A stretch of 64,000 nucleotides of DNA. Source: Thelephora terrestris. Its lineage: Eukaryota > Basidiomycota > Agaricomycetes > Thelephorales > Thelephoraceae. Below, one piece after another: positions 12,475 through 41,450 of this stretch; the stretch's first letter is position 1; the number at the start of each line of letters is the position of its first letter. The translations under genes and the position numbers were made by a program. The stretch is taken from contig WIUZ02000021.1 of NCBI GenBank assembly GCA_015956445.1, positions 186,001 through 250,000 on the forward strand, given 5' to 3'. The notes under the pieces were generated by a model that was given only the letters and a program-made list of their open reading frames with translations, was not told the DNA's origin and ran no database searches.

Positions 12475-12564
12475 GGGCACGTGGTGTAGTTGGTTATCAC
12501 GCTCGCTTAGCACTCCCGCCGAGGAACTTGCGAGAGGGGTCCGGTTCAATCCCGGACGTGTCCA
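12475..12564 (+). tRNA. tRNA-Ala(AGC) with a 16-nt intron
   Basis: The acceptor stem GGGCACG pairs with CGTGTCC and contains the G3:U70 wobble that is the alanine identity element; the discriminator base is A at 12564. The D arm is GTGTAGTTGGTTATCAC. The anticodon stem CTCGC/GCGAG encloses T33 and anticodon AGC at 12509-12511. A 16-nt intron at 12513-12528 sits one base 3' of the anticodon, the canonical position. The T arm is TCCGG-TTCAATC-CCGGA. A run of T from 12565 is a plausible RNA polymerase III terminator. Confidence 0.93.
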
Positions 12565-12754: not shown

Positions 12755-15700
12755 ATGCCTCCCGGCACCAAACACAATGATTTCGAGGCGCGGCTTTACA
12801 GAGCTAAACGGAACAGAGCTTGTGACTCGTGTCGTAAGAGAAAAGGCGAGTAGCATGACCACTTCATAAACAAATCACCCCAACTCACCCCCCGGAACGA
12901 TGGGCTCCAGCTCGATGTAAGTCCCCTTTCCTTCCCGGCTTCCCAATTTCTCGGTTAGGAGACTCGTTTGGATGACGCCGACACGTTTCCCGCTGATTAG
13001 GTGATGGGTATGAGATGCTCGATAACGTCTGCACTACCTGTGCCATGTATGGGGTAGAGTGTACCTACTTCGAATCGTCCAAGGTATGACTGCCTTTGCC
13101 CTTCGCACCATATCATCTACATACCTCACAAATTACTTTAGAAACCCACGTCCCAAAGGTGGGCAATTCTCCGATCAATTCTCTACTTCACGGGTCCCCA
13201 ATGACCTTTAGTTATGTCCGAGAGCTTGAAAATAAGCTGGCACAGGTGGAGAGACTCATCCGCGAGGTATGTTTTGGAACCTTTTGCTTGTGTCAATATG
13301 TCGGCCGAACTCTAAACAGGTATCCAATCCCGAGAGCCAAAGTTCAAAGTCCATCCTAGAGGCTCGGAAAGAAAAGAACAAACAGAGTGTAACTACCGGC
13401 CCCTCCATGGACCATGCTCGCCCTTCACCACCGTTTGCTCGTGTTCCTCAAGTCGGTGCCTTGCGTCCGCTTCCCGAAGCAGATGAACACGACGATGACG
13501 ATTTTGTGGCTCTGTACGACCCCAAGAAAGGCTCCTTAGAGTCTCACAAGGAGGGTGTTACCCCAAAGTTCTTCGGAGAGAGCAGCGTCTTCACGTTCCC
13601 CCAGGCCCTGGGACAAAGTCCCTTGTCACCTCGTGTTCCTTCCAGACATAGGCTCGAGTTTTGGGCTGCTCCTACCGTAAGTTCCCTTTGTTGAGCGATC
13701 GGCCGGTCCGTAGAGCATTTTTTGACTTCCTTCGAGTGGCTGTTGCCTGCCTTGCGGGGACCTCGGATGAACCTTGTGTTCCCCGAACCAAGTTTAATGC
13801 GGCATCTTCTGGACATATACTTCGATATCCACAACATCGTCCTACCAATTCTACACAGACCAACATTCGAGCGGTCATTCTCGGATAAATTACACGAGCG
13901 AAACGAATCTTTCGGAGCCGTGGTCATCCTAATGTGTGCAATTGCCTGTCGCCATTCTGATGACCCTCGCATCAAGCATCCTATCGTCACTTCGACATCG
14001 AACACTGGTTGGAAGTTGTACAACCAAGTCGATAGGCTAGGGAGGCCACGGCTGGTGGGGCATCACCTATACGATGTCCAGATATACGCCGTATGTCGAG
14101 TACACTTTCCGAGGGATATACACTCATTGCGACGCTATTCAAGCTAGCTGCTTGCTTCCTTGACGGATACTCTCTTCCACAGACACCGTGGTTGATGGTC
14201 GGCATCGGCTTACGAGTAATGCAGGAGCTCGGAGTCCACAGGCGCAGGTTCACCGTAAAGAAGTCAGTGGAGAATGAGCTCTGGAAACGGTGTTTTTGGG
14301 TGCTAGTCATAATGGACCGCACGTTCAGCAACCTCCTTGGACGGTCGTGTGCGATTCAAGACGAAGAGTGCGCATCTATTTCATTTTCGATCGAGTAAAA
14401 ACTCACCCGTCTGTTGGTCAAGTTTTGACTTGGACCTGCCGTTGAACTGTGATGATGAGTACCTCGAACATCCGGACCCAGAGAAGGCATTTAAACAGCC
14501 GGCCGACATGCCGTCCAAAATGGACTACTTCATCTCGATGATTCGATTGAATCAGATTGTTGGATTTTCTCAAAGGACTCTGGTGCGTGAACCCGATCCG
14601 GACGTGGCGCTGTCGATGCTAAATTTGAATGCATGGCTGTAGTATTCAACAAGAAAGTCGAGATCGGTCCTAGGCTACGTAGGCAATCGGTGGGAAAGCC
14701 GCATTATTTCTTCCCTGGAGGGCGCGTTGAAGAAGTGGTTCGACTCTGTTCCACCGCACCGTACGATGCTTCGAACTATGCTGACAGTTTGACTAATTTG
14801 TGCCGCCCAATAGTTCGCTGGGACGTTCAAAAGAATCAAACCAACATGACCTGGCTCCGCCAAGCACTATCACTTGCTGGCAATTATTACGAACTTCAGA
14901 TCATCATACACCGCCCATTCATCGCTCGGCCTGACCCCACCCTGTCAGAGCCTGCATGGGTTGCGTGCAACAAGGCGGCCAAGAACTGCGTGGTCGCTTT
15001 TGGAAGCGTCAAGGACAAGTTGAATGGGCGGATTCGGTTCCACCCGTACGCGAAACCGATGTTTGTGGCCGCAATCTTTTTGTTGCTCCAGTTCCACGGG
15101 AGAGGCATCGACCAAGGGTCAGAACTATACAAGGCGATCATGACGGTCAAAGAGATGGTTGAGGAGGTTGGGTCAAAGTAAGGATTTCGTCACTCGGGCT
15201 TTGCGTTCTGTCGATCTCATACGCTGATGTCCGCTTTCGTTGTGCCCCGTCCATTGATGGATCAGTTGGACGACAGGGAAGCGACTAATCGGTGTCCTGA
15301 ACGCGGCCCTCATCCTTTGTGACAGCCAATACACGGGGTGGAAGCCTGGGAAGGAGGACTTGATCGACCTCGAATTGCGCATGCTCTGTTTCGTTGACGA
15401 GTACGGGAGGCTTTCGTTTGGGGATGAGGGTGAAACTGTGACCGACTCATATGGCTCGACCTCTTCGGAAAACATACCTTCACCGCAGTCGGTCCCATCG
15501 GTAGAATGTTCGATGTCCGAGTCGAGTCCTAATGATCCCTCAGCCGAGAGTCCCGACAGCATCGAGGCCGACCCAACGCGGCTCGGCCTAAACACCGTTC
15601 TGGCCGACGATAAACCCAGTTTTGTGGCTTCCGAAGCTGGACCTGGACCAATCATGACTACGGAACCACGGAACGCCTCTGTACCCACGAACCTCCAACC

Positions 15701-16529
15701 GAGCTCCATTCCAGAAACGTCCGGGGCGCCAGGTAATCCCCCACCGCAGGACGGGAAGTTCTTCAGCAATCCTGCGAACCTGCGAACTCTCATGACCGGA
15801 AGTGGTGATGGTTATAGGTCACCCGAACCACCGTCCCGGCTCGGCACCATTTCCCCGTTTTATTCCCTGCGCAGAGAACGTCCAACGCTGGATGAAGGAG
15901 CAACGAGTTCTCCATACAACCCATTGGGAGCGGCTACGGAGCAACCCGGGCTGTCGTTCTCTGTTCAACAGTCCGGTACAACCCAATCTCTTAACGGTCC
16001 CAGTCTGGATATGGGGTACGGGTACGAACCACCGCCTGCCTTATCAAGCTCGTCGGTGTTGCCTGTCGAGTTGATGGTATACAACGACCTGATGACGGAT
16101 ATTGCCACGGCGCAATACCTAGAAGCTGAGTTGCAAGGCGTAGGGCCTCCGTTTTTCGTTCACCCGTCGATGTCAACGAATGAGGCTGGCGGTGTCGATG
16201 GCTTCGGCTCGAATACAAGCGGGTATCAGTGGCAAGGTGTCTCACAGAATACGGCGCACGGGCCACCTCAAACGATGCCGCACTATGGCTATCCTCAGCC
16301 AGGTCAACCGCAACATGGAGCGCACACCGCGGCGCAGCGAATGGGGACAGACTTTAGGGGACAGTGGCCTACTGGAGGTATCACAGACTACGAGTGAGTG
16401 GCCCATGACTTGCCTTTTGTTTGGCTGGTCCAGAAATTTCTTGAACGTCTGATCTGCAGCGCATGGGAGCGAACATTGTATGAAAACTTCATGATGGGTC
16501 AACAGGCAAACCATGTGTCCCAATATTGA
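12755..16529 (+). CDS. Zn2Cys6 transcription factor with fungal_trans domain (regulator A)
   Basis: Thirteen exons sum to 3048 nt (1015 residues): 12755-12845, 12911-12916, 13001-13083, 13142-13158, 13212-13266, 13320-13676, 13716-14090, 14144-14367, 14423-14582, 14643-14760, 14814-15177, 15266-16393 and 16460-16529. The zinc cluster is C-x2-C-x6-C-x9-C-x2-C-x6-C at residues 23-53. It is completed only through a 6-nt micro-exon (CTCGAT), and its upstream intron has a GC donor. A short coiled-coil-like linker, VRELENKLAQVERLIRE, follows. The fungal_trans core includes PWLMVGIGLRVMQELGVHRR, ENELWKRCFWVLVIMDR and DFDLDLPLNCDDEY. The C-terminal third is disordered, rich in Pro, Ser and Gln. Expected to be a nuclear DNA-binding regulator; its targets are unknown. 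Confidence 0.92.
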
Positions 16530-16860
16530 GTGGTAGCTGATATCCTGTATCTTGTCTCCCGTTTTCTGGACTTTCTGGACCAAGATGGTGTTGTGGGTGG
16601 GGTCTGTGTCAGTGGTGTAGATCGTTAGTGACCGTTGTTAATGTATATCTGCAAGATATCTCGAGGAGGTCGCAAAGGAGTGGTGGTACAACTGGGAAAG
16701 AGTAAAGGACAGAGTCCGCGCTGAGGGAGACCAAGAAATAATTATGTAACACTTGGAGAAAGGGAAAAGCAGAGTGAAATCCACGACACCTGACGACACG
16801 CTATTACACCGTTAAGTAAAGAAAAGTTGAGCCTAGCAAGAAAAAGAACCTCTACACGTC
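16530..16860. other. convergent intergenic region
   Basis: Lies between the stop codons of regulator A (+) and the membrane-protein gene (-). Probably two 3' UTRs; nothing else seen. Confidence 0.5.
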
Positions 16861-17595
16861 CTACTTCAACAAATATGCGATGATGCCTACAGAAGTACAC
16901 AAGGCCGAGCCCAAGTGACAAACCGTTCCGAATGTCGCACTCACGTCGACGAAAAGAAGAACGGCGGAGAGCGTTGAGGCGAGGAGGCAAGCCATGGGCG
17001 CCATCGCGAAGGTGGCGAAATTGACTTTCAACGAAGGCCCGCTAGATCCGGGACTAGACAACGCAGTGGACTTTGATCGTTGATGGGAGTGCATATACAC
17101 TAGGGAAGAAATGGCTGTAAGAATGATGCAGAGGAGAAGGCCATAGGCGCTGCTCGTTCCACAGGTCATGCCCAACGTCTGTTGAGACGGTGTCGGGTTG
17201 GGGAAGATGGTAGGGAGGACGTTGAGGGATTCGTTAGGTGCGTAGAGGAGGCATCCGGTCACCATATCCCATCCCAGCGCAGAGGCTGCACCTGAAAGCG
17301 AAGCTTGGATGAATGCCGCGAGCGTGAGGCCTTTAGGAATTAGCGGGGGTAGTCGCGACCATCGCAAGGTCCGTCTTGGGAACGAGGAAGTTGCTGGCTG
17401 GGGGAGGTAGCGGCGGTCTTCAATGAGAATTGAGGCTGGTGGTGAGAGGGGTGATGCTGGACTGTCCGAAGGGTGAGGGTAATATGAACAGTGGGGTGTA
17501 GCTGCAGGGGTGACGATTTGAGGGAAAGGTATTATGTTCACCGGTGGGATACCAATCCTCGGCAATAGTGGGCTTTTCTCGCTCGAGGGATGCAT
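16861..17595 (-). CDS. predicted four-pass membrane protein, unknown function
   Basis: A single-exon ORF of 244 residues from ATG 17595 to TAG 16861. The first 85 residues are Pro/Ser-rich and probably cytosolic. Hydrophobic stretches then follow near residues 88-110 (GLTLAAFIQASLSGAASALG), 145-165 (YGLLLCIILTAISSLVYMH), 193-215 (FATFAMAPMACLLASTLSAV) and 220-244 (FGTVCHLGSALCTSVGIIAY). A basic/Ser-rich loop separates the second and third. The ORF is intact and has the regular composition of a coding sequence. I do not recognise the family. Confidence 0.6.
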   Translation of the reverse strand: MHPSSEKSPLLPRIGIPPVNIIPFPQIVTPAATPHCSYYPHPSDSPASPLSPPASILIEDRRYLPQPATSSFPRRTLRWSRLPPLIPKGLTLAAFIQASLSGAASALGWDMVTGCLLYAPNESLNVLPTIFPNPTPSQQTLGMTCGTSSAYGLLLCIILTAISSLVYMHSHQRSKSTALSSPGSSGPSLKVNFATFAMAPMACLLASTLSAVLLFVDVSATFGTVCHLGSALCTSVGIIAYLLK

Positions 17596-17901
17596 GATGA
17601 TGGTTCCGGGGAGAGAAGCAACCGCGTTCTGTCATAGGCCTTATTTATGTCTTGGGGCGCCGACTGCGCGGCTTTGGCCACCCCGGAAAAGTTTCATCTC
17701 GGTTAACATGACGCGTCGGAACAAATCTCTGCATCACAGGCATGAGGCATTGGCGTGTATGTGGATCATGTCGTGTTGTAGAGGTAGAGTGGTGATGATG
17801 TGTGGTGGAGACAACAAAAAGATAAATAGTCTGTCTACTGTCTAGTCGTCTCCCGTGTATGATTATAATGTGAATGTGGTAACGGAACAGAAACGAAATC
17901 C
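17596..17901. other. intergenic between the membrane-protein gene and cytochrome c
   Basis: Upstream flank of the gene starting at 17595 (-) and 3' flank of cytochrome c (-). No feature seen. Confidence 0.4.
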
Positions 17902-18476
17902 TCAAGCGCACTGAAAGACATCGAAAAGGTCAGGATCAGCCTGGGATGGAGTAGAGGAGACCAGGATACGTACCGCGTCCTTAAGGTAGGTAACAAGGTC
18001 ATTACGGTCCTTGTCCTTCTTCAGGCCAGCAAACGCCATCTTCGTTCCAGGGATGTACTAAACCGAAAGCACGTTATAGCTTCAACTGTGGAGAACACAT
18101 TCGGAACGGGCTTCACACCTTTTTGGGGTTTTCAAGGTATTCGAAGAGGGTGCCCTCGTTCCAGGTGATACCCTTGCTCACGTTGGCGGCAGTATATGAG
18201 TAATTTTCGGCCTGGCCGGTCTTACGGCCGAAGAGTCTGAATGCCAACAGGTCAAAAATGCATTCCGCCGGAACAAAGCCATGTCAAGACTTGCCCGTGG
18301 AGGTTCGGTCCAACCTTGTGGGGTCCGCCAGCCTCTACAGTGTGGCATTGGGCGCATCGCGTCTTGAAGAGACTGGCACCCTTGGCAGTGTCACCTGCAA
18401 AACGCAAAGTTCGTTAGAAACCCAGAGAGCGGGAACGACCTGGGAGGAGAGGGAGCTCGCCTGGAGAGTAAGGCAT
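17902..18476 (-). CDS. CYC1: cytochrome c
   Basis: The soluble electron carrier between complexes III and IV in the mitochondrial intermembrane space. Five exons on the minus strand give 108 residues: 18461-18476, 18295-18394, 18119-18236, 17974-18057 and 17902-17910. The heme-attachment motif CAQCH is at residues 19-23, followed by [20 protein letters not shown]. The Met ligand (about residue 85) lies in [14 protein letters not shown]. The first two introns must use GC donors: CCAG/GCGAGC and ACGG/GCAAGT. They join conserved residues exactly (SPG-DTAKGA and [12 protein letters not shown]). The last exon is only 9 nt (CA-stop). Length is normal for a fungal cytochrome c. Transcribed divergently from TFIIF beta. 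Confidence 0.95.
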
Positions 18477-18602
18477 AATTAAGAATGGTATAGGAAGGTA
18501 TGGACGCCTAAAAGAAGGGAGAGAACGGAGGTGGTGGAGCGGGTTGAAGATGGAGTTGAGGAGCGAAAACTCTTGAAATACCCGCTCCGAGATGCCGTCC
18601 AG

Positions 18603-18656
18603 CCAATCCCGCTTTCCCGATTTATTCCGGATCACGTGAATCTCCCTATCACGTGA
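18603..18656. promoter_or_regulatory. shared CYC1/TFIIF-beta promoter elements: CCAAT box and two TCACGTGA palindromes
   Basis: In the 244-bp gap between the two divergent ATGs there is a CCAAT at 18603-18607 and two identical 8-bp palindromes TCACGTGA at 18632-18639 and 18649-18656. CACGTG is the core site of bHLH factors such as Cbf1, and CCAAT is bound by the Hap2/3/5 complex, known to activate CYC1 in yeast. Binding here is inference from sequence. Confidence 0.55.
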
Positions 18657-18720
18657 TGCAATTACCGACTCTTCCGTTTTTGGTAATTCCTGACCACGGC
18701 CACTCCTTGTTCTCATACCG

Positions 18721-19831
18721 ATGGAGGTCGAAGAGAGTGAGAACAAGCCCTTCGATGCCGAGCTCGCCCCAGACGGCGAGGAGACTCAGCCCGAGCCCGA
18801 TGAGCATATGATCACAGACACCGCCACCGGTAGAGTCTGGATAGTGAAGGCGAGTGACCACACCTGCCTAGTCCATTGAAGCCTTCTGACACACTACGGA
18901 CGATCCACCACAGATCCCGAGGTTTTTGATGGAACGCTGGGCGAACGTCAACCGAGAGGATGTCCACCTTGCCACCATCCGCGTCTTCAAGGCTAGTAGC
19001 AGAATAAAGCTCTACCTCCCTGAGAACCCTGCCAGTCCAGATGAGCCCCGGGAGTACGAGCTCGAAATGGTTCAGGAGTCGGTTGACAATCAACTCGTGG
19101 TGGCCGAGAAGGAGAAAGAGTCGGGTAGCCGGGCTAGGACGACGATTCTTGCGGGAAAAGTCAAGCACGAGTGCAACTTACGTCCTGTGTTCACGGAGAA
19201 ATACAGGAAGCGAGTTCGTGAACGGCACAGGGAAGTTAACACGAGGTCAAGGCAGATCAAGATGATTGACGAAGTTACGCCCGGAAGAGGCAGCGTCAAC
19301 ATGCTCAGCAGTGGCGTCGCAAATGCCAGTGCTTTCTCAGATCTTGTGGTGCGTACATCCCCCCATTCCCCTATGTATTCTGGATTAATTGGATGATCCG
19401 CATAGAAAACAAAGCAGAAGCCTACCAAGGGATTCGAGCGCATGGCTCGTATGCCCAGGAACCAGCTTCTCGATATGCTTTTCAAGCTGTATGCGGAGAA
19501 GGAAACGTGGCCAATCAAGCTCCTGCGAGAGAGGACGCAACAGCCAGAGGCATTCTTGAAGGAGACGCTGAGCGATATCGCGTTCCTGCATCGAAGCGGA
19601 GAACACAACGGCACTTGGGAGCTGAAGGAAAACTTCAAAGAGGGGGTGCGTTTCCATTCCATACATACTCTGGCGATTACACATAAATTGACGAAATACC
19701 CTCAGGCGAAACCCGAAGCCGGTCCCAGTGGGTTACCGGGGATGGGTGGCGCCGACTTCAAGATGGAAGACGCTGGCGAGGATGATTACGACGAAGACGA
19801 AGACGACGATGACATGGAGGAGGTGTCATGA
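18721..19831 (+). CDS. TFG2: transcription initiation factor IIF, beta subunit (RAP30/Tfg2)
   Basis: A nuclear general transcription factor that binds RNA polymerase II with TFIIF alpha and stabilises the pre-initiation complex. Four exons give 309 residues: 18721-18849, 18914-19348, 19406-19645 and 19706-19831. GRVWIVK-IPRFLMERW matches the RAP30 N-terminal dimerisation region. RTTILAGKVKHECNLRPVF lies in the middle. The C-terminal winged helix contains NQLLDMLFKLYAEKETW and TWELKENF. The first intron uses a GC donor (GAAG/GCGAGT), fixed by the conserved VK-IP join. The tail is strongly acidic (EDDYDEDEDDDD). Its 5' end faces cytochrome c across a 244-bp shared promoter. Confidence 0.93.
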
Positions 19832-20309
19832 ATGCTTTGACATCTGAATTCTCCTGTCTATGTACGTCATTCGAGGCAAGGGGCCAAGGACTGTGAGTCG
19901 CTGGTCATTAACGACTTGAGCGGACCGGCATCCCGGGCATCCCTACCCAACCTCTTGGGCTATCTGGTTTATTTTTACTAGATATCGCTCACTTCTCTGT
20001 GGACGCCTGGACTCCCCGCATTGCATCTTTCCTTAGGATACTCGGTAGTTGTTCGTTGGTTAGAGTACAGCCTCATTACATGGATCATGACGTTATCTGA
20101 TGTTTGATAAACGCCTGGGTGTGGTCTCGAGACTCGAGGCTTTTTGGCTTCCGAAACTCATTTATTGAGATTTTCCCCTCTTCGCTGGCCAAGAGGAGTC
20201 GACTCAGGTTCCGGACATACCCTCACTTTGAACGGCGACCGTTGTGGTCAATGCGACAATAAAGGGGCTTCACCACGGAACTTTGAACCCAATCTTTCTT
20301 CTTACTCCC
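19832..20309. other. intergenic, nothing recognised
   Basis: Presumed TFIIF-beta 3' UTR followed by the 5' flank of the membrane-protein gene at 20310. Confidence 0.4.
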
Positions 20310-20861
20310 ATGTCGACCATCTCACCTCGACTGGTCTTCCTCTCTTTCTCTTTCAGCATCGCTTCCGGCCTCTGTTTCCTCAACTCCGGGCACACTCTCC
20401 TCCAGACCCTCGGTGTTCCAGGTTTCACGACTCTTCCCCCTGACACCTCCCTCAGGATCGGTTTGGTCGGAGGCGCGTTCACTGCAATACCCGTTCTCGC
20501 CCTGCGTGCTATCCCATCTGAACTGAGCGACTCTCTCGACTGTTCCTACGTGGCCATCTTCTTCCTTGCTATCGTCGCAATTGGTGCTGCTCAGGGGTAT
20601 GTCGGTGCGAAGATGTGGAAAGGAAGGATATACGTGGTAATTGAGGGCGAGAAGCTTCCCGGGGTTCTGGGAGTGGGCAGCGCGTCCCTCGCTGGTGCAG
20701 TGGGAGCTCTGGTGCTCGTCGGAATCACAGTGGGCCTTTTGGTTCTCACTATCATTCTCCTCGAATACCTCTTCCCGAAAGAAAGAAATCCACATAGGCG
20801 GTCCCGCCCGCCCGGCCCAGCACAACTAGAGCCTGCGGAGGTGGAACAGCCCCAACGGTAG
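20310..20861 (+). CDS. predicted four-pass membrane protein, unknown function
   Basis: A single-exon ORF. I prefer the ATG at 20310 (MSTISPRLVFLSFSFS; 183 residues), which starts just before the first hydrophobic helix; an in-frame upstream ATG at 20244 would add 22 residues. Hydrophobic segments cover roughly residues 6-28, 51-72, 85-105 and 132-160, the last being GAVGALVLVGITVGLLVLTI. The C-terminus is short, basic and then Pro/Glu-rich (KERNPHRRSRPPGP). Such a layout is seen in small fungal four-helix membrane proteins, but I do not recognise the family. Confidence 0.6.
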   Translation: MSTISPRLVFLSFSFSIASGLCFLNSGHTLLQTLGVPGFTTLPPDTSLRIGLVGGAFTAIPVLALRAIPSELSDSLDCSYVAIFFLAIVAIGAAQGYVGAKMWKGRIYVVIEGEKLPGVLGVGSASLAGAVGALVLVGITVGLLVLTIILLEYLFPKERNPHRRSRPPGPAQLEPAEVEQPQR

Positions 20862-21636
20862 CTGTTTCTCATCTCTCTACGTGACATGACCATCCCATTC
20901 ACATTTGTGCTCTAGCCATGCGGAATGAAATCGGCCTCGTCTTCCGGCCGCTTATCTCACAGCCATCGACAAACACTCATCACAGACCTTGTTCCCCTCC
21001 CCTTAGTTTATTCTCCTTGTCCTTGTCGTCGGGATCCCAAGGCCCACACTTCGATTCTTAATCCATTGCCCTTGCAACTCCGTTCCATGACGAATAGATT
21101 CGCCCATCAATTCAGTACCATCTGACCCAGTTTCTCTCCTTACGCATCTCCTCCACCCGGCAAACTCTCGGTTTTGCAGCCGCAGTTGGACAGCCTCAGC
21201 GTCTAAAAGTCTAGCCAAGCCCCCTCAGCTGCAGCCGCGAGGTTGCCACACGGTGATCTGATCGATCCCCCCGAAAGGGACAAAGTACTCACGCCTCTCA
21301 TCACTGTTGAACGCAAAGGGTCAGCTCGGGTCTCGTCTGCTGGCCCCCACGGCCCAACAGCCATGGACACGCGACACCGTATGCTTATAAGCCCTGAAAT
21401 GAACGTGGGCAAAACACACACCTCGCCCTCCGCTTGCACACCACACACCGTACGCCGCACCTTGACCGAGTTATTCCCTCCTTCAAACCTGTTCCTCGGA
21501 TTCGTTTCTTCGAACAGGGTCCCCAAGCCAACTACTTGTCACGCATTGCCAACGGGAAACCTCCATCTTCTCTTGCGTTGATAACGGTCTATTGTCCCCC
21601 TCGCAGTGATCGCTTGCCCTCGCCCTACACGCCATA
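20862..21636. other. intergenic, nothing recognised
   Basis: Short overlapping ORFs only. Probably the 3' UTR of the preceding gene and promoter/5' UTR of the gene at 21637. Confidence 0.4.
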
Positions 21637-22402
21637 ATGAACTCTCTGAACAAGCATACTTCATCTCACCATCCAAAGCACGACTCCGGCAAAATCACCA
21701 CCGTCCGACGGATCAGGAGGAGAAGGCTCAGTTCGGAGCAATTGACCATCACACCCGTTCCCAGAGAAGAGCTTCCAGACGAAATGAGGTCGGTGCTGGA
21801 GTCGGTACGTCCGGACTGCCATCTACCAAACCCGCTTGATCAGCACCCTAATAATTACCATTGGTCAGTTCATCTCGTCTCGACGACCTTCCCTAGCTGA
21901 CGTCCGGTTAGCACGTTCGGACGTCCCCCAAGCCGGTACGAGTGCTCGCAGCCAAAGCCAAGGTAGCTCAATCCAGGGTCGTGAACGATACGATTACGAT
22001 GGTCGTGATGACTATGGAATCCAGGGCCCGAACCCCAAGTGGCCCTTCAGCTTTACCTTGGAGGGGAAGAAATTTCCTTCGAGGGTGCACCACACGCACA
22101 AGGTAGTCGCACGCTCCCGACCCAATGCGAAAGAGCAGATGGGGAAGAGGAAGTGGCATCCTTCTAAGCGTCACGGAAGGGTGATTCGGCAGGAGGACTA
22201 CGATGCCCATGCGGCCCACGAGCTTGGTCAGAGAACACAGTTCTTGAACAGCGAGAGTTTGTTGAATCTCTCTGTCAAGGGTGGAAGGGCTGCGAAGGGA
22301 ATGGTAGGGAAAGCGGTGGGTGGAAATGGCTGGTGGAAGTGGCCTTGTAGGTTGAGAGGTAAGTTAGGGAAGGCCACGAAGGGGATGTTTCGTCGTGTTT
22401 GA
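21637..22402 (+). CDS. hypothetical basic protein
   Basis: Two exons (21637-21804 and 21869-22402) joined by a GT-AG intron in phase 0 give 233 residues. The N-terminus is Ser/His-rich followed by the basic run VRRIRRRRLSSEQL. The second exon contains a tryptophan/aromatic patch, GPNPKWPFSFTLEGKKFPSR, and the C-terminal 60 residues are Gly/Lys/Arg-rich (GGRAAKGMVGKAVGGNGWW). No signal peptide, membrane segment or known domain is visible. The strong basic character would fit nucleic-acid binding or a ribosome-associated role, but that is a guess. Downstream begins the tandem-repeat array. Confidence 0.5.
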
Positions 22403-22669
22403 TATGTGGCACGTTCCCCTTTCGATGTATGAACAGTTTTTTTAACCACTCCCCGGCTTTTCCGTCGTTTACGCTATGTCCCGTATTATTGATTAGCACC
22501 TTGAGTCTCCTCTTGTCCCACTTAGCACCCCTTATAATGGAAATGGTTACAAACACGCTGCTATCGTCTCTTCCACCATTATGCCGGGAGGCAGTTCGTT
22601 CCGTTGATCGAACATGACACGCCCAAGGAAAAACTCTAAACGGAAGGCTGCCACACAAAATTAGAGAGC

Positions 22670-25000
22670 GGAAGAGATGAGGATGAGAAAAATAACATGG
22701 GGCCAGACACATTGGATTCCCAAGGTGCCCAACCCCTTGTTACAACCTTGTTCAACTGTCTTTCAGTCAGATGGACAGAGAATCGATTTGAGACTGAACG
22801 GCGGGTTTTCCGAAGAGGCTGTTACATGTGCTTATCTCGTTCCCGTGAGCCCGTTTGAATGGGTTGTGGGAAGGTTGCATCCTCAGGCGGGAAGTGTGGC
22901 TGGCCACGCACATCGGAGTGATCGACTCGTAGCGCCGATCGACGACGTCAAAGCAACACGACTGATAGCCCCAGGCGGACTAAGTAGAAGAATGTTGCAA
23001 AGAGTTCCGTGCGGCTCGCCCAGTCATCAACAAATCCGGCATAGAGATTGGAAGGCCACAGAGTGCAAGCATGGGGGGCGATCCGGCGGGGCGTTCTAAT
23101 TTACGCGAGTGGACACCGGTCAAGAGCTACCGTATAACATGCGCCCAAAGGCGGCGTATAATACTGAAGAGATTTCGACGGCGAATACTGTACATAGATG
23201 CAATAAAGTAGAAGAAAATGATAACAAGAAGCCCAGCGGTCGCCAAGCGGGGCTCGGTTCCTTGTCTGACCTTTGTGAAAACCCCAATTTGTGCAGAAGA
23301 GGGGGCATTGGTTCGGAATCTGGATTATTTACATTGAGAATGTCAGATGCGCCGCAGAGCAGAAGAGATGGAAGTAAGAAGAAAAAAACAGGGACAAGCC
23401 ACCTTTTCGATGCCGTTGGGCCCACGGGATCACTATCAAGGTGGACAGTCCCTGTTACAACCTCGTATAACTTTCATTCATGGTCATGAACAGAGAATCG
23501 CTTTGAGTCTGAACGGCGGGTTTTCCGAAGAGACTGTTACGTATGCTTATTCTCGTTCCCGTGAGCCCGTTTGAATGGGTTTTGGGAAGGTTGTGTCCTC
23601 AGGCTGGAAGTGTGGCTGGCCACGGACATCCGAGTGATCGACTCGTACTAGCGCCAATCGAAGACGTCAAAGCAACGCTACTGATGGCCCCAGGCGGACA
23701 AGAAGAATGTTGCAAAAGAGTTCTGTGCGCCACTCACCCAGGCATCAACGAATCCGGCATAGAGATTGGAAGGTCACAGTGTGCAAGCCTGAGGAGCGTT
23801 TCGACGGGGCGTCACAAGGGAGGCTGGGAGCGGGGATCGACAGGTTGTTTTGTCACCGGTCAAGACTACCGTATAACATGTTCGACAAAGGTGGCGTAGA
23901 ATCCTAATTACGAACCGGAGAGCTTTTAATGGAGAATAAGCCTAAGACGCTCGGCGGTCGTCAAATAGGGCTCGGCTCCTTGTACGACCTTTGTAAAACC
24001 CCCATTTTGTGCAAAAGAAGAGGCGTTGGTTTGAATCTGAACAACCGGTCTTGGGAGGTTGTTTACATGGAGAGTGTCGTATGCGCTGAACAGAAGAGAT
24101 GGACTAGTGAGAAAAGCAACAGGGGAGGGCACCTCTGGGATTCCGTTGGGCCCACGGTATCCGATCTTTTGAGGTGTCCAGTCCCTGTTACAACCTTGTG
24201 CAACTTTCTTTAGCGCATGAACAGAGAACTTTTTTGAGTCTGAACGGCGGGTCTCCAAAAGCATTGTTACGTATGTTTAGTCAAGTCATTGAATGGGCCT
24301 TTAGGAAGGTTACGCCCTCGGGCTGGAAGTGTGGCTGGCTGCGGCACACAGAGGGTGATCGCCTCAGACGCACGATCGGCTGAGTTGAACTAACATGGCT
24401 GTTAGCCCCAGGAAGAGATAATCGGACAGAGGGGATGTCGCAAGGAAGTCTACGCCATCGGCCCGGGGGAATAGTCATTAGAGGGTTACAGAGTGTAAGC
24501 AAAGGGTATGATCCGATGTTGCCTTCTAACTTACGGATGGAGAGGTTGCAGCCGATGGAGGTCCACGGAATACCTAGTCAAAAGTCATCGCACAATATAT
24601 ATACCAGAACGGCGTAGGATCTGTTCATCGTCGAACGTTGATCCGAGGTCCCACTGCGCAAGTACTTTAGGCTCCAATCTGGATCACGAACCACAGACCG
24701 GGAGAACTCTCAACGACGAAGGCCGTACACGAGAGGCTAAGTAGGAGCGTAAGAACAAGAAAATTACAAGGAGTCCAAACCCATTCAGGCCCAGACTCCT
24801 TGTACAATCTTTGTGAGACCTTCGTTCGTGCAAATGGAATGAGATTTGTTTTGAGTTCAAACGGCGGGTTTTCCGAGGACATTACGTGCGTCCATATTAA
24901 CCGTTTGGGCAGGTTCCGGGGAGCTCACGCCCCGTGCACAAAGTGTGGCTGGTGACTTCATGGAGTAATCGTCTCGAGAATGTTGTTCGTCCGACTGATG
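22670..25000. repeat. four diverged tandem copies of a ~0.6-0.73-kb unit
   Basis: The landmark ACGGCGGG occurs at about 22799, 23513, 24244 and 24861, giving spacings near 715, 731 and 617 bp. Other shared landmarks in the same order are CCTGTTACAACCT, GGAAGTGTGGCTGGC, GCCCCAGG and ATCCGGCATAGAGATTGG (first two copies). Also shared are CCGTATAACATG and CTCGG(T/C)TCCTTGT. Copies 1 and 2 are most alike; copy 3 has drifted and copy 4 is partial, ending near 25000. Reading frames are not kept between copies because of small indels, so the unit looks noncoding. I recognise no transposon termini or tRNA/5S signals in it. Confidence 0.8.
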
Positions 25001-25423
25001 AACTATTGTGTGACTTGATCGATACTGAAACTGCTCGCATACAGCCATTGAATGGTACTGTTTAAAGGTGCATAAGACAGAGTTCAACGCTGAACCCTCA
25101 ATTTTTCACAGACAGTGTTGATAAATTCATTCAAAAACTCCCGCGCGTATTTTAGAGCAGGGGAGCCTGGTTCTGTGTCTTCGTTGTCGTGATCAGAGTC
25201 ATGGAGTGGGGATCGTACTCGAGAGAAAGGGTTTGTCTAGTATCCTGGAAGGTCATCGCCCCACCGCCTCCCCAATTACACTATGTAAGATCTATCCTAA
25301 CAGATCTAATGCTGCCTTCTATTGTACAGCGGATTGACTTCATCTGATTTCTATGTCGCCTGCTTGGTTATTTGATCGAGAAAGTTGTCATAAAACGCGC
25401 GATCCCAAGACCTATCTCAATGG
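25001..25423. other. intergenic between repeat array and regulator B
   Basis: Probably the 3' flank of regulator B (-). No RNA gene recognised. Confidence 0.4.
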
Positions 25424-28400
25424 TCAGAGTCCATGACGGACGAGATGTGCTGGAAGGATTTGAACCCACCCCTGCATTGTGCTTGGTAGCTGTGGCCCGG
25501 AACCTTGATCCGGGTGGTAGCCAGCTGGAGGTGAAGACGGTGTTGAAGGAGAGCTAAACAGAACGGAATCCTGGAAGTCCTGACCCAGGAACCTCGCTGT
25601 TCCATCGATGTCCATCATCAAGTCGTTGTAAATCATGAGACCCATCGGTAAGATAGATGAGGGGTCTCCCGTCATACGTCGTCCGTTTATCCCGTTTGTC
25701 TCGTCTGGGCTACTGTATCCTGAGGATGAAAGCATTGCAGAACTTTCGCAGAGGCCGGGGTTGTTTGCGAAGAAAACCGCCGGGGGCAGGTCCCCCGGTT
25801 GAATTGCCCCATACCCAGCCGGCCCATCCGCCCTGAACGTTGGTCGGGGTGCTCCTGAATCAGTGTTCCCTCTTGGTCTTTCCAGGGGGTACGTTTTTCC
25901 TGGGCTGTTGAACGAGGCATTCCGATCGCCGTACTCGTCCTTATCTTGGAACGTCCGGTGGGCTCCGCGGCCGTTTTCCGCGGATGATATCAACCCGTCC
26001 TTGTCAACGTAGAACACTAAACAGGCCTTCATTCTGTCCCAATCTTCAAAGGTGGGTTTCCAACCCATGTAGGGTCCGTCAATCGTTGCCCGCAGAACCC
26101 CCAGGATGCTCCTTATACAAGCACGTCAGGAAGGCTCCCTGGTAATCTCACAAGTATTGTAGACGTACCGTAGGCACAGGGAAGTCCTCCACCTATGAAA
26201 CGTGTTTCCCTGTAAATGATAGCGAGACATTTCATGCGGGAACCAGATGCGTTACCTTTTCAACGTCAGCTGTACCATTTCTGTGACAAACTCGATAGCA
26301 CGATACTCTCGTGAATTGTAATCAATAGCTTTCTTCCTCCAAAACACTAGGAGAAGGAAAACACAGGCGTCGAACATAGGTTTCTAGAGTAAATGATGGG
26401 TGGGACTGAGTATCTGCGGGCTCGACATGGCTTGGGACTTACAATAAAAACGTGGGTGGCGAGCGGGGTTAGCAACAAATCTTTGGAAGATTCAACGATC
26501 CCAATACATTGTTTGGCGGCACTTTTGCAGATGATCATGGAAGACGCGGTCAACTCCGGGTCAGGAGGGTTCCTCAGAGCAAACACCCGGTGGACGTGCA
26601 ATTGTAATTCGTAGAATTGACACCAGAGGAAAGCAGATTGTATCCGGTAGGTTCGATTCTTCTGTACGGACCCAGAGCCCTGGCGCACTATGAGGGGAGT
26701 GGTTAGTCAGGATGGTCAGGTAAGAGAGGGGGAGGCGCACGATGTTCGGGGACAATATCTACCCATTTGTTCAGGGCTGAGTCGAGCGTGACAAGAATAC
26801 GTTGTTCCCACTGTTTCCCAACGAAACCAAGGACGACCCTTGAATTCTTTGTCGAGTACTGCGACCGCCGTCAAAATTTGGTACAGGCGATATCCCGTGC
26901 AACTCACCAGAGTTCTGAGGGCGAATGCTAGGATTTGGGTGAGTTTAGTGAGGGCAATGAAACTGCACATTTCTGTCGGAGATTGTGCAGGTGAGTCCAA
27001 ACCCGACTCCCCAAGGTCTTCGTCGTTGCATGGAAGAGGGGGATCCGCATCGAAGCTGATAGATATCAGACGCAGCGTAGGGTGATGCAGGATACAAGCC
27101 ATACTCTTCATCCTGCAATGCACACGGCCTCCCGAGAAGCGTGCTAAAGGAACGGTCTAACACGACCAGAACCCTGCGTGGTGTTTTCAGTCCCGAATGC
27201 ACACATTCGCAGGAGGTCACCCACCAAAATGCTCGCTTCCACAGCTCATTCTCCAGAGTCTGCTTCTCCGAGAAGAATTTCCGGTGGACGCCATTGTCTT
27301 GCATGACCCTCAGGCCCACTCCGATGAGCACCCAGGGAGTTTCAGGGGGTGAATAACCTTCCAGAAAGAGCGCAGCCAGCTTTTGTAGACTTGATTAAAC
27401 AATGCTGGAAAGGGATCGGGAAGACGCACCGGGTACATTTGAGCTTCATACAATGAGTGGGGAAGATAATTTACTTTCTTCAGCTTGTGAAGTTGGCTGA
27501 ACAACCTCCAAGCAGTGCATGACGTGGAAGTGGTAATTTCGTAGGTTACCCTTGGGTCATCGGTGTATCTGCACCCAATTGCGCAGACCGCAAGTACGGT
27601 AGCGCCGAAGTTGTGGTCGACCTGGTGCAATCCTTCTTCTATGGAGCGCATGAAGGATGGGCGGTGTAGCAGTGGAAGCAGTATGTTTAGATTATCGAAA
27701 TAACAGTCGACGAGGTGTCGCAAAAGGTCAGTGTCGGGGTATTCGAACTGGATTGGGGGGGACTCCAATATGGATGTCATCCACTTGAGGGTTATTAAGT
27801 GACAGAGCACCCGCAAACAACGACTGAACCCACATCAGGAACGGCCCAAAACTGTTTTCTGAGTTTTGGCATAAAACGCGCGCCAGTCTGCTCACGCCTC
27901 TCGTTTACAAGTTTATGGGCGAGCACAACAAGACTGCTCTTGCCGTAGAACCGAGCGTTTTCGTGAGAACCTTCCACTGGGCCCTTCGAAGGACTTGTAT
28001 CGTCCACGGTCGCGAATTCATCATCGCTATACGTCGCCTCTTCTTCCGGAGGGCATAGAGGGTCGATATCTGGCGGTTTGGAGTAGGCGCGCGCCGGGAG
28101 AGGACTCAATTTCGGCTGTGCTTTGGCTTCGTCCTCTGAACTGCTATTGTTCCCATTTGTATGGCCATGGGTTGTTGAGCTCCACGGCGACCCAAGCGTG
28201 TCCAAATAAGAGTACTATCGAGAGGATAGAACTGGTGAGTAAGCGATTAGGGTACATCCGGAAATTTCCCAGACCTTTTGCACGAGTTGCTCCACCTTGG
28301 CTAGACGAGCCTCCAGGATTTGAGTGTATCTTTGAAGATCGTTTGAGTTCATATTTATACCTCCGTCTATCATCCCTACCCTTTCGGTGTGGACCTCTGT

Positions 28401-28711
28401 TAAAATTTAGTGAGGCGCAGTCACGGGGCGAGTTGCGTAGAACAATCGCGCGCACCTTAGGAAGGTCATTGTAGGTACATTCTACTGAGTAAGTGATGCA
28501 AGTCGCACAACGGCCATCAGGCATATCAGAGCCATTGCCTGATACGGGGCCAAATAATCTCAACGGTTGTCAGGACACTCAAGGCTTCCGCGTCAACTTA
28601 CAGCGAGCTGGCTGAACATTTAGCTTCTGATTGGACTCGAGGGAAAGTAGACTTGCCTTTCTTCTTTCGGCAAGAATCACAGGCTCTGCTCCTTTTTGGC
28701 CCTGAGAACAT
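25424..28711 (-). CDS. Zn2Cys6 transcription factor with fungal_trans domain (regulator B)
   Basis: Starts at ATG 28711 and ends at TGA 25424-25426. The first exons are 28657-28711, 28602-28607 (micro-exon CTCGCT), 28456-28538, 28380-28396 and 28275-28329. Exons two to five (6, 83, 17 and 55 nt) have the same lengths as in regulator A. The zinc cluster C-x2-C-x6-C-x9-C-x2-C-x6-C is at residues 11-41, followed by YTQILEARLAKVEQLVQK. The first intron has a GC donor (AAAG/GCAAGT). Fungal_trans motifs include HLVDCYFDNLNILLPLLHRP, GATVLAVCAIGCRYTDDP, VLIGVGLRVMQDNGVHRKF and LLGRPCALQDE. The tail contains MGLMIYNDLMMDIDG but lacks the AWERTLYENF-type ending of regulator A; the 3'-most exon joins are less certain. 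A nuclear regulator of unknown targets. Confidence 0.85.
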
Positions 28712-28959
28712 GGATGCGTAGATCAAAGGTGTTACTGAACACTAGCCTGTGTCAGCATCGATCAAGTGGGGCTTAGGCTCGGAACCGGACCCACAGAGCC
28801 GCGTACTTCCCTCGGCACAAACCGAAGCGAGTGTTCCATCTCCAATAGGATGAGATGTGGATGTCATTACAGTCAAGCATCTAGATATAATAACCTTACA
28901 ATATGCCTAATACAGCATCCAAGTCCCAGAAGATTCTATGCGGATTTTGGTTCATACTT

Positions 28960-31900
28960 CTATGCCCCATCGCGAAAGCTGGTAGCGAATGTTTGAGACC
29001 CTCCCCCGTAGAAAAAATGAGCCAGATCATAAGGCAAGTAGTGACCCCCGTCAATGCCCTGGTCACCAATGCTAGTGAAACCAGTGGAGGATGGACCAGA
29101 AAAGAGGACCGATGGGTCCGTGAAGAGGTCCACCGAAACTGGGTCCACCGACTGAGCGGGATGATCGTTGTCCATTGTAACTCCCTCCCGTTCCGTTCCG
29201 ACGTCTTGGAATCCGATAGGAACGTATTCACCACCCCACAGCAGCTCTGCCGCGACCGGTGGAATGACTCCCTTATTCGCGTGAGCTGCTGTGGGTTCCA
29301 CCCTTCCTACTTGAACCTTATTGGTTAGGACGCCGTCCTGGTCAATGAATCGGACCCCCCTAAATTTAGGTTTTGCCCAATCGCTGAGGGCGGGTTTCCA
29401 TCCAGTGTGGAAACCTTCAACCGTTTCGCGGAGTACTCTTGCGATATCTCTGGGGCGAGCTGGTGAGATGCAGTCGCAAGTAAGGACTTCGCAAACGTAC
29501 TGCAGATGTAGCGAGACGCTCCGTCTGTGAGAGGACATGAGGAGCTGAGGCTTTTCATATCGAGAAAGCGGTACCTTTTTGCTGTTTTCCCAACCATCGT
29601 CGTTCCAGCCTCAATGGCCCAGAATTCTGGAGAATTATAGTCGATCCCCTTTTCCTTCCAGAACATCAGGAGAAGAAAGACTACTGATGTAAACACGGGC
29701 TTCTAAACGTAATCGAAGACTTTAAGCATCTGCACAGTAACACCAAAATTAAGGCTCACAATCAGTAAAAAGGAGTGAAGAGGAACGGTCATTACGTCCC
29801 TCGCAGACTCCATGATAGTAATGCACTGCTTCGAGGCATTCCTACAGATAATCATAGAGGATGCAGACAACTCCGGGTCCGGAGGTTCCCTCAGGGCAAA
29901 CATCCGATGGATGTGGAGTTGCGTCTCGTAAAATTGAGTCCAAAGGAATGCAGACTGTATCAACTCTTCTCGACTCTTTTTTTGAACCTCGGGGCTCCAA
30001 CGCACTGGGGATATGGAAACGATTGATATGACAGGATTTTCAACAAAGTAGTGGGGAAGCGCACGTTGTTCAGGGACGGTATCTTCCCATTTGTTCAGGG
30101 CCGAATCGAGGGTAGCAACGATATGTTTTTCCCAACTTTTTCCAACGTAACCAAGAATAACTCTCGACCTCCTCGTTGAATACTGCAACGAATCAATTCG
30201 AAGACATAGAACAGAGGCGCTAGTGGACGCACGATTGTTCTGAGGACAAATGCGAGAATTTGATTGAGTCGAATAGTCGCCACGAAACAACACATCCGAG
30301 TCGGTGGATCGACACCAGTCGGGGGATCAGTGGGACCATCGTTCAGGTCCTCATCGTTACATATGATGGGGAGGTCTGCATCGAAACTATAAAGAGTAAG
30401 TTCCGAGTTTGATGATACGAGAGGCGAGCGATTTACCCCTCATCCTGCAAAACGCATGCCCTGCCGAGTAAGGTACTGAGAGCGCGGTCAAGCACGACTG
30501 AGACCCTGTATGATAACCTTAAGTGAGTTTCTGGTGTCCATTCTGTCAGCAATGGCTGACCAGAAAGCTCGCTTCCATAGTTCTTCCTCGATCGACCGTT
30601 TTTTCGAAAAGGACTTGCGGTGGACTCCTTTGTTCTGCATAATTCTGAGCCCAGTTCCTATGATCAACCACGAGGTTTCTGGGGGGGAATATGACTCAAG
30701 GAACAAAACAGACAACTTTGCGGAGGTCATTATGCCGGGCCAAACGCAAGAAGAATTGGTGAAGAGTAAACTCACGGGATAGAACTGGATCTCGTAGAGT
30801 GAATGTGGAAGGTATGGAGCTTTTCGTATTCTATTGACTTGGTTATAGAGGGTCCAAGCGGTGCAAGGCGTGGAAGTTGACAATTCGTGAACAACCCCTG
30901 GATGGTCGGAATATCTACAACCTATCGCGCAAACCAACAATACCGTGGCGCCAAAGCTCTGGTCAAATTCGTGAAATCCTTCTGCTATCGAGCGCATGAA
31001 GGAAGGGCGATGGAGAAGGGGAAGGACTAGATCAAGGTTCTCGAAGTAACAATCCACGAGGTGGAGCATGAGACCCATTTCTGGGAACTCAAACCGCACC
31101 GCTGGGGATTCGAGCATCGGAAGGAGCCACTGGAACGGGGAAAACCTGAGGCTCAGAAGTGTGTGGGGAAAAACGAGATCTACCTCAGGCGGGTCCCAAA
31201 ATCCCATCCTACACGTCTGCATCGACCGCAAAGGATCGTTCTTGCACCCTTTCTCTGCAAACGCTAGGTGAGTGGGCACAGATATAGAATATACTTAGGT
31301 GTGATTCTTACCAAAGAATGGTAGCTTGTCTCGGTCCTGTCCCAGCTGCATCGAGAATCCGTCGTTGCCATAATCCGCTTCCTCAGAGTACGAGAAAGGG
31401 TCAAGACCCGGGTGCTGGGAATATGTCCGTGGAGAGAGTGGATCGAATTCCGGGCGGGGCTCGAGGACATATTCTGATTCACTATCACTGGCGTTGAGGC
31501 TGATGTGGTTTGGAGATAACATGTGAGATGTTTCTTTACGTCCGTACTGTGGGGGATTCAGTTAAAACCGAGACGAGGAAGCTAAGGGGAGGACCACGCA
31601 CATGTTGTATCAGGCGTTCCAAATTGGAAATACGAGTCTGGAGAGCTTGGACGTAACTGCGAAAACATGAGCCGGGATCCAAACCACCTCTCATGGCTGC
31701 TTGTTCTCACGTTTTGGGAGTGGCCTTCTGGGCCGGTGGTCGATCAGCGTGTCTCGGGGTGCGCGCCAGCGGGGGATCGTTATAGATGCATTCTACAGAA
31801 TGGGTGATGCAGGTTGCGCATCGGCCACCAGGTACGTCAAAACCGTTACCTAGCGAGAGTCCGTGAGCGGTGCGACCTCCTTACTCTGAGCGCAACTTAC

Positions 31901-32018
31901 AGCGAGCTGGGCGGGTTCTTCAGCGATATTACGAGGATCACGAGAAGAGGGGAGACTCACATTTCCTTTTCCTACAAGAGTCGCAGGCTCTGTTTTTCTT
32001 TGCTTTTTGGGAGGACAT
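28960..32018 (-). CDS. Zn2Cys6 transcription factor with fungal_trans domain (regulator C)
   Basis: Starts at ATG 32018 and ends at TAG 28960-28962, only 248 bp upstream of the start of regulator B on the same strand. First exons are 31961-32018, 31901-31906 (micro-exon CTCGCT) and 31767-31849, then exons of 17 and 55 nt. The zinc cluster is at residues 12-42 with the linker YVQALQTRISNLERLIQH. Intron 1 has a GT donor here, but intron 3 needs a GC donor (GCTG/GCGCGC) to keep the 83-nt exon and the frame. Fungal_trans motifs include HLVDCYFENLDLVLPLLHRP, GATVLLVCAIGCRYSDHP, WLIIGTGLRIMQNKGVHRK and YSTRRSRVILGYVGKSWE. The C-terminal tail is shorter than in regulator A and lacks the (M/L)VYNDLM motif. 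Most similar to regulator B, suggesting a local tandem duplication. Confidence 0.85.
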
Positions 32019-39689: not shown

Positions 39690-41256
39690 ATGAATCCCTT
39701 CCCACCAACCAGTTTTCCTGCCCTTCCAGTTCCACCGGGGCCGTCCATGGCCGGGAGAATGCCCAACTTCGACCCGCTCTCACAGTCTCAGCATTTCCTT
39801 GCGCTTCCGCGACCCGATGTGACGCTTGGGCCATTACCCCGCGGTCTCGCAGATACCACAACCGTCGCGGCCCATGACTTCGATGTCGACAATAGAACGG
39901 GTTTCATGCCTCCGGAACCGCCGCTTGCTCGCCTCCCGAGTGAGTGGGAGACCTGGGAAGCGATCCTGGATTCTGCGCTGACAAAGCGCTTGAAGCTTCA
40001 CAACGGACCTACCACTTCCGTTAGTGACCGCGCTGATTCCGCGGCTTGGAGACGAGTTGTGCAAAAGGTGCGTAGGATCTCCGCTGCGATTTGAATGGCT
40101 CCCATTAAATGACACTGCGATCGCTGATCATTCTCGTTCCATTTTACTCCAGCTTCCCGTCTTATCTACCGATGACCTCAAAACCTCGGAAGTGAGGTTG
40201 AGACGCGCTCACCACGTCCTCGTTTGGGTCATGCATTACTACATCTACACTCAGCCAGAAGACATCCAACCAATCATTCCCCGCGGGATCACCATACCCT
40301 TGCTGCGTGTCTGTCAGCAGCTCCTTTTACCCCCGATCATGACCTACTCCGATAATGTCTTATACAATTGGGCTCTTCTACGCCCGCAGACACCCCCCTC
40401 GGACCAAGGCAGTTTTGAAGCCCTCTTGTTCCCCCTTTCCGCTTCCTCCACCGCCTCCACACCCGCTCTGGATAACCTCAAGTGTTTGGCGACATTCACT
40501 GGAACACGCGATGAGGAAGAATTTTACCTCGCCTCCGCTCGTATCGAGTTCCGCGGCACCGAGGTTCTCGAGATCATGCGAGAGACCATGGACGAAGCAT
40601 TCGTTGGCGATAACACCGCTTTGCGGCGTATAACTTCTTACCTTCAGAGGCTGCCCACTGTAATCAAGGACATAACCAAGCTCCTCACAGACGTTCGACA
40701 TGGATGCGACCCCGAGCTCTTCTACAACCAGATTCGCCCCTGGCTTAAGGGCCAGGACTCCGGCCCGGCCTCGATCAAGTGGGTCTTTGAGGGAATCGAA
40801 GAAGATCCCACTCTTGTCCAGCCAACCGAGCTTTCTGGCTCGTCAGCCGGCCAGAGCTCACTCATCTCCGCTCTGGATATCTTCCTCGGGGTTTCTCACG
40901 GAGATAACCCTACCGCAGTACAGTTTTTGAAGAGGATGAGGATGTATATGCCCCGCCACCACCGCAACTTTCTGCGTCATCTCGAGAACAACCCTCGTCC
41001 GCTCAAAGCCCTCGTCGAAGCCAACAGAGACTACCCGGGACTACTGAATGCGTTCAACGCCTCTATTGAGACTTTGAAAGAGTTCAGGGAAGCTCACATC
41101 AGGATCGTGGGCGTTTACATCACTGGGCCTGCAAGAAGGGCTAGGGAACGTCTCGGTCAGACCGGAGAGGGTGCAGTTAAGGGAACAGGCGGAATGAGTG
41201 CGATGGCATTCGTCAAGGGTACTAGGGATGATACGGCAGCATCGAAGCTCTCATAG
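39690..41256 (+). CDS. BNA2: indoleamine 2,3-dioxygenase
   Basis: A cytosolic heme enzyme that opens the indole ring of tryptophan to N-formylkynurenine, the first step of de novo NAD synthesis from tryptophan. Two exons (39690-40067 and 40153-41256) give 493 residues. Family motifs are WVMHYYIYTQPE, FTGTRDEEEFYLASARIE, ELSGSSAGQSSLI and RMRMYMPRHHRNFLRHLE. EAHIRIVGVYITGPARR near the C-terminus contains the His at about residue 441 that corresponds to the proximal heme ligand (His346 of human IDO1). The N-terminal 70 residues are Pro-rich and not conserved. The gene ends 112 bp before tRNA-Val. The symbol follows the yeast ortholog. Confidence 0.94.
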
Positions 41257-41368: not shown

Positions 41369-41450
41369 GTTTCGGTGGTCTAGTGGTTATGATTTTCGCC
41401 TCACATGAAGATATCGCGAAAGGTCCCCGGTTCGACCCCGGGCCGAAACA
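41369..41450 (+). tRNA. tRNA-Val(CAC) with a 9-nt intron
   Basis: The acceptor stem GTTTCGG pairs fully with CCGAAAC and the discriminator is A at 41450. The D region TGGTCTAGTGGTTATGA matches yeast valine tRNAs. The anticodon stem TTCGC/GCGAA encloses T33 and anticodon CAC at 41402-41404. A 9-nt intron (41406-41414) follows position 37, the canonical site. The T arm is CCCGG-TTCGACC-CCGGG. Four T residues follow immediately, a weak polymerase III terminator. Confidence 0.92.

Follow-up and report, generated by a model that had tools for sequence, protein, structure and literature searches.

A six-nucleotide coding exon within the zinc cluster of paralogous GAL4-type regulators in Thelephora terrestris

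The stretch of DNA analyzed here, called the window, comprises 64,000 nucleotides (nt) of contig WIUZ02000021.1 (C14:186001-250000) from the basidiomycete Thelephora terrestris (assembly GCA_015956445.1; 40.6 Mb in 60 contigs), and all of our evidence comes from this one genome. Exon-by-exon models, which stop short of the gene ends, were built on the genomic sequence for three genes of the window, A (+ strand, from 12755), B (- strand, from 28711) and C (- strand, from 32018). In each of them, two introns within the zinc cluster leave an exon of only six nucleotides. Judging from the sequence, this exon is probably a coding microexon that is included by default and kept for the sake of the DNA-binding domain, and not the splicing switch that an initial annotation of this DNA had proposed.

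The predicted proteins identify A, B and C as paralogous GAL4-type (Zn2Cys6) transcription factors, for which zinc-dependent DNA binding is predicted. When spliced with the microexon, the clusters read CDSCRKRKARCDG...CTTCAMYGVEC in A, CDSCRKKKARCNG...CATCITYSVEC in B and CDSCRKRKSRCNG...CATCITHSVEC in C, and they match PF00172 (Zn_clus, cut-off 21 bits) with 36.1, 41.0 and 41.7 bits, respectively. A also carries a Fungal_trans domain (PF04082, 101.5 bits). The loci of B and C were likewise matched in the genome search, and their identity to A in the alignment is 45% for B and 42% for C. Spliced B additionally matches GAL4 structures (six distinct PDB sequences, E<=0.01), and in this comparison the Ala-Arg of B lies opposite the Leu-Lys that precedes the same Cys of GAL4.

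Exon 1 of A (12755-12845, +, 91 nt) ends with ...CDSCRKRK and the first base of an Ala codon. It is followed by intron 1 (12846-12910, 65 nt), which has a GC donor (GCGAGT) and the acceptor CCAG, by the microexon CTCGAT (12911-12916), which completes the Ala codon, encodes Arg and opens the codon of the third cysteine (Cys3), and by intron 2 (12917-13000, 84 nt, GTAAGT...TTAG). The remainder of the zinc cluster is encoded by exon 3 (13001-13083, 83 nt), a linker by exon 4 (13142-13158, 17 nt), a coiled-coil-like linker by exon 5 (13212-13266, 55 nt), and the Fungal_trans domain by exons 6-11 (13320-15177), the gene end lying outside the model.

The same order is found on the opposite strand in B, where exon 1 (28657-28711, -, 55 nt) is followed by intron 1 (28608-28656, 49 nt, GC donor GCAAGT, acceptor CCAG), the microexon CTCGCT (28602-28607), intron 2 (28539-28601, 63 nt, GTAAGT...TCAG) and exons 3 (28456-28538, 83 nt), 4 (28380-28396, 17 nt) and 5 (28275-28329, 55 nt). 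Exons 6-13 of B (26256-28214, -, gene end outside the model) align with the Fungal_trans part of A. Where exon 7 begins is uncertain (about 27740-27835, -), as the residues expected at its start lie in another frame next to a run of C; from the sequence, B may be damaged, or the run may have been misread.

In C, exon 1 (31961-32018, -, 58 nt) precedes intron 1 (31907-31960, 54 nt, GTGAGT...CCAG), the microexon CTCGCT (31901-31906; part of a Ser codon, Arg and the first base of Cys3) and intron 2 (31850-31900, 51 nt, GTAAGT...CTAG). Exons 5 (31602-31656, 55 nt) and 6-14 (29575-31546, again aligned to the Fungal_trans part of A, gene end outside the model) lie downstream. Exon 3 (31767-31849) is 83 nt long provided that the next 39 nt are an intron, and exon 4 (31711-31727, 17 nt) is possibly continuous with it. 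This putative intron (31728-31766, -) has no GT and a GCGCGC donor, its length is divisible by three and it contains no in-frame stop; the segment may therefore be coding, in which case exons 3 and 4 would not be separate. The series of 83-, 17- and 55-nt exons that the initial annotation had described for all three genes thus holds in A and B, but its 83/17 split is doubtful in C.

All three microexons are preceded by CCAG and followed by GTAAGT, and the letters and positions given for them in the initial annotation proved right, with splice signals on both sides. Its account of their coding content, Ala/Ser-Arg plus two thirds of the neighbouring codons, needs correction, as its six bases are the last two of the Ala/Ser codon, all three of the Arg codon and the initial one of the Cys codon.

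The need for the six-base exon was assessed by enumerating every splice path that uses a GT or GC donor, an AG acceptor and introns of 40-150 nt, from the first half cluster to the pattern CX2CX6C...CX2CX6C, in A-C and in four further paralogues, D-G, introduced below. None of the seven genes has a single-intron path that restores the zinc cluster. In five of the seven (A, B, D, E, F), nothing but the 6-nt exon restores it, and in C and G this exon is the best solution, while the other two-intron solutions (two in C, one in G) all use GC or off-consensus donors. The annotated view that Cys3 is built only with this exon is upheld to this extent, and an exon with AG before and GT after it was found at a length of 6 nt in 7/7 genes, well under the limit of about 30 nt for an internal coding exon to count as a microexon.

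Such a path can also arise by chance. With splice-site quality ignored, 94 of 1050 shuffled sequences gave a 6-nt path, so that a single gene is weak evidence. The proportion fell to 8/7000 when the sites had to be at least as good as those observed, and to 0/7000 when a basic residue before the Cys was required as well. These figures bear on the possibility that the arrangement is an artefact, i.e., that the genes are pseudogenes, or that a chance acceptor-donor pair conceals some other unrecognised exon or start. While the chance paths at low stringency and the uncertain exon 7 of B speak for an artefact, we regard it as scarcely credible given the recurrence in all seven paralogues, the absence of comparable shuffles once site quality and the basic residue are considered, and the coherent downstream exons with a Fungal_trans domain.

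The paralogues were found by a protein search of the genome. D (C14:149 kilobases, kb), E (C14:155 kb) and F (C14:184 kb, just outside the window) lie on the same contig, and G lies at C12:2.10 Mb; the six regulators D, E, F, A, B and C thus occupy about 68 kb (C14:149-217 kb), which is a local expansion. Every gene carries the 6-nt exon at an identical place in the codons, where it reads CTCGAT in A and D, CTCGCT in B and C, TTCGGT in E, TTCGCT in F and TACGCT in G. It codes for Ala, Ser or Val, for an invariant Arg (CGA, CGC or CGG) and for the T of Cys. Exon 3 measures 83 nt throughout A-F, while in G the choice of donor makes it 83 or 80 nt; exon 4 measures 17 nt except for 20 nt in F, and exon 5 measures 55 nt except for about 46 nt in G, as read by eye. 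Paralogue F contains KRGPPKGYVESLENRL, which we take to be a feature of the family; together with the densely placed introns of 50-60 nt, it fits a basidiomycete of the mushroom group. Identity among A-G is 41-69% in aligned blocks, and the presence of the exon across this range indicates that it predates these duplications.

The nearest gene without the microexon, H (C1:3.69 Mb), has an unbroken cluster. An unrooted tree places it next to G, at the end of a long branch (support 89); such a tree is compatible with gain as well as with loss of the microexon, and H is a mere candidate for a family root that would date the gain. A genome search for CAGCTCGNTGTAAGT, exact or with one mismatch, returned 15 places, four of them exact (A, B, C and C15:448246), and the pattern used detected no half zinc cluster in the 150 bases upstream of the 12 places other than A-C. 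Hence letter identity cannot find the exon class, whereas protein homology did. No relatives were found in the viral and genome contig collections searched, which are without fungal relatives; this is as expected for a fungal gene.

Very short exons also occur in other zinc clusters of this genome. Of 67 candidates in a PF00172 survey, which is not a census, 50 matched at E<=0.05 (49 above the cut-off), none of these being A-G. For all 50, splicing between Cys1 and Cys3 was then solved with microexons of 1-24 nt allowed and no specific length imposed, at least two basic residues between Cys2 and Cys3 being required of spliced paths. For 18/50 clusters the best solution consists of two introns that leave exactly 13 nt, always from position 17 (the Arg codon after Cys2) to position 30 (before Lys/Arg-Cys3), and this exon carries residues such as RKKK. 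The remaining clusters are unbroken (13/50), contain one intron (13/50) or are without solution (6/50; L101, L104, L106, L110, L112 and L117). In shuffled sequences, any 13-nt path appeared in 108/1080 with site quality ignored, and in 0/1080 did one score as well as those observed.

The 18 cases are not all of equal weight. L107 ties with a contiguous reading that omits the matched half cluster, and L085 (C60), L088 (C58) and L090 (C11) are near-identical, with the same introns and 13-nt exon; their sequences mark these three as recent copies, which reduces the number of independent cases. Together with A-G, a microexon is found in 25/57 clusters examined. The 13 single introns are located at positions 17 (two), 19 (four), 26 (one), 27 (one), 30 (two) and 33 (three), and none of these 13 genes has its intron at position 28 or 34. 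Those at position 17 (L004, L007) and position 30 (L074, L078) resemble the two halves of the 13-nt arrangement, which suggests that the microexon originated through successive introns. Two clusters from another search, outside the 50 (L065, L071), also have single introns.

Three genes encode twin zinc clusters in one chain, which looks unusual: L084/L115 (C1:3452957-3453600), L095 (C56:504939-505560) and L096 (C21:50760-51421). In each of them, Cys3 of the first cluster and the CxxCR of the second lie on a single open exon, and all six clusters contain a 13-nt exon of their own.

The initial annotation had described skipping of the 6-nt exon as an in-frame event that removes two residues beside the zinc-binding Cys. 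The reading frame is indeed preserved in 7/7 genes, but a Cys is left in C only, where T and GT re-form it with two residues fewer. In A, B and D-G, the final G of exon 1 joins the initial GT or GC of exon 3 to give Gly, and the Cys is lost. GAL4 clusters depend on their zinc ligands and on an invariant CX6C spacing, and loss of either upon skipping makes loss of function likely.

A cassette switch would make use of this, as conditional skipping would yield an in-frame protein with Fungal_trans and without DNA binding, possibly acting as a dominant-negative partner. The divisibility of six by three, the intact frame in all seven genes and the loss of Cys3 in 6/7 are compatible with such a switch, and so is the GC donor with which intron 1 begins in both A and B. 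A precedent is Xlr2 of Trichoderma virens, whose zinc cluster contains a 20-nt microexon that is used when glucose is absent (PMC11121469; this and the other papers cited here are represented by excerpts). However, the excerpted text on Xlr2 describes two separate transcripts when the microexon is not used and no exon 1-exon 3 junction, so that the precedent itself is not one of skipping (PMC11121469). In A-G, moreover, the length of six bases follows from the fixed CX6C spacing with both introns in phase 1, and a length dictated by the protein makes frame-keeping no evidence of regulation. Skipping would also require introns of 111-160 nt, whereas the flanking introns measure 48-88 nt and the 29 other introns of A-C 39-86 nt (median 54). 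The flanking introns are little conserved between paralogues (identity 56% vs 52% and 54% vs 51% in shuffled sequences), and conserved intronic control elements were rejected as a candidate on these values. Finally, the second and commoner class of microexons in this domain has 13 nt, a length not divisible by three; skipping it shifts the frame, so that it cannot act as an in-frame switch. We therefore depart from the switch proposed in the initial annotation and consider it very unlikely.

Regulation could instead act on intron removal. If intron 1 were detained, its slow, regulated removal after intron 2 would set the amount of active regulator, with retained forms that mostly stop early. 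Retention of intron 1 does lead to a stop within 3-40 codons in 6/7 genes. In plants, the intron upstream of a microexon is often detained (PMC8831610), and intron 1 of Xlr2 in T. reesei is kept in some transcripts in a sugar-dependent manner (PMC11121469). The outcome is not uniform, though, as G reads through with intron 1 retained and F with both introns retained, and we think this explanation unlikely.

Default inclusion of a coding microexon remains the explanation that we favour, and it would come about as follows. The short introns of fungi are generally viewed as being recognised across the intron. Two short phase-1 introns six coding bases apart, flanking the Arg codon before Cys3, leave the 6-nt exon. 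Each of them would be ordinary, short and recognised across itself (intron definition), so that inclusion would be the default, and the two would be removed consecutively, as two spliceosomes can hardly occupy six bases. The exon would have been retained since before the paralogues split, given that without it the DNA-binding domain would be broken. The event would have recurred in a different branch of the family with introns 13 bases apart, giving the 13-nt exon with its basic DNA-reading residues. A likely by-product would be low and possibly condition-dependent full splicing, with mostly one-intron retention and less clean skipping. Work on plants reports that splicing tends to take out the introns on either side of a microexon in succession, and that the upstream one often comes late (PMC8831610).

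Several observations weigh against this explanation. When site quality is ignored, some restoring path exists in 221/1050 shuffles (21%), and by a simple pattern, branch-point motifs are clear in only 5/14 flanking introns. The upstream introns of A and B are of the GC-AG type (GCGAGT and GCAAGT, absent in C-G); these donors, found in 2/7 genes, otherwise follow a strong consensus but may be weak sites, and together with the Xlr2 precedent (PMC11121469) they are the weak points left in support of regulation. The skipped forms of A, B and C still score 22.7, 25.6 and 31.2 bits on Zn_clus, above the Pfam cut-off of 21, so that a skipped product is compatible with the family model. In addition, B may not be fully functional, considering its uncertain exon 7 start, and inclusion of the microexon in A-G is predicted from genomic sequence and paralogue conservation.

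A broader idea starts from the placement of DNA-reading residues on 6- or 13-nt exons in about half of the clusters examined. Completion of two closely spaced splicing events would then be a shared checkpoint, in which the splicing capacity of the cell (temperature, nutrient state, spliceosome load) would determine the dose of active regulators across many pathways together, while unspliced or skipped forms would serve as inactive partners. We regard this as improbable.

Elsewhere in the window, a tRNA-like gene with an intron was seen by eye just upstream of A (about 12475-12563, +), with AGC in the anticodon loop and a T run behind it; ARAGORN, run with bacterial settings, made no such call. 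The same program called a selenocysteine tRNA at 41369-41450 (+), which is odd for such a fungus and probably a false match. An indoleamine 2,3-dioxygenase gene (PF01231, 357 bits; 40024-41253, +) adjoins a gene for a PrpF-family protein (PF04303, 106 bits; 41510-42223, -), and a reading frame at 46044-47309 (-) matches part of the actin profile PF00022 with 33 bits (cut-off 27).

Xlr2 is one of the closest known systems. Like the exon of A-G, its microexon lies inside a Zn2Cys6 cluster, is needed for the DNA-binding domain and was missed by gene prediction (PMC11121469). It differs in that Xlr2 belongs to an ascomycete and its 20-nt exon encodes PCRRCE with two cysteines, the fourth and fifth by our reading (PMC11121469), whereas the exon of A-G measures 6 nt (13 nt in the other class), lies before Cys3 and recurs in many genes, which places it outside the Xlr2 type. 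In the basidiomycete Phanerochaete chrysosporium, very short exons, down to 6 bp between introns of 45-55 bp, are likewise spread over a family, but these P450 genes encode enzymes and not a DNA-binding domain, and the excerpted text says nothing of an exon class fixed within a metal cluster (PMC1184071). The 1-nt exon of Fusarium CYP621A, the correct splicing of which its authors showed with transcript reads, also sits in a conserved motif and was found by comparing homologues; it differs in its size, in being part of a P450 and in being confined to one orthologous group (PMC12940212). DAO1 of Rhodotorula has a 6-nt exon 2 and is thus another basidiomycete gene with a coding exon of this size, but it is a metabolic gene and the exon is mentioned within a promoter construct (PMC4624585).

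Plant microexons share a fixed size and phase that are conserved across a family, are mostly constitutive and in some cases lie in DNA-binding domains of transcription factors (PMC8831610, PMC7714060), with AP2/ERF and MADS as examples and an enrichment in AP2 domains (PMC7714060). They occur in unrelated families and were fixed by RNA sequencing (PMC8831610, PMC7714060), whereas ours come from genome sequence. Among the papers listed by full-text searches of part of the literature, none described 6- or 13-nt exons that recur in zinc clusters of basidiomycetes. Microexons in fungal zinc clusters and 6-nt exons in basidiomycetes are thus already known, but a recurrent 6-/13-nt zinc-cluster class appears to be new.

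The finding matters for how these regulators are counted and for how their transcripts are processed. Exons as short as 6 or 13 nt will escape standard gene prediction, and many GAL4-type regulators of such fungi may therefore go unannotated or have annotations that lack a functional DNA-binding domain, so that counts of them would be too low. At the same time, about 25 genes in one genome provide a natural set for studying the intron-defined splicing of very short exons and its possible regulation.

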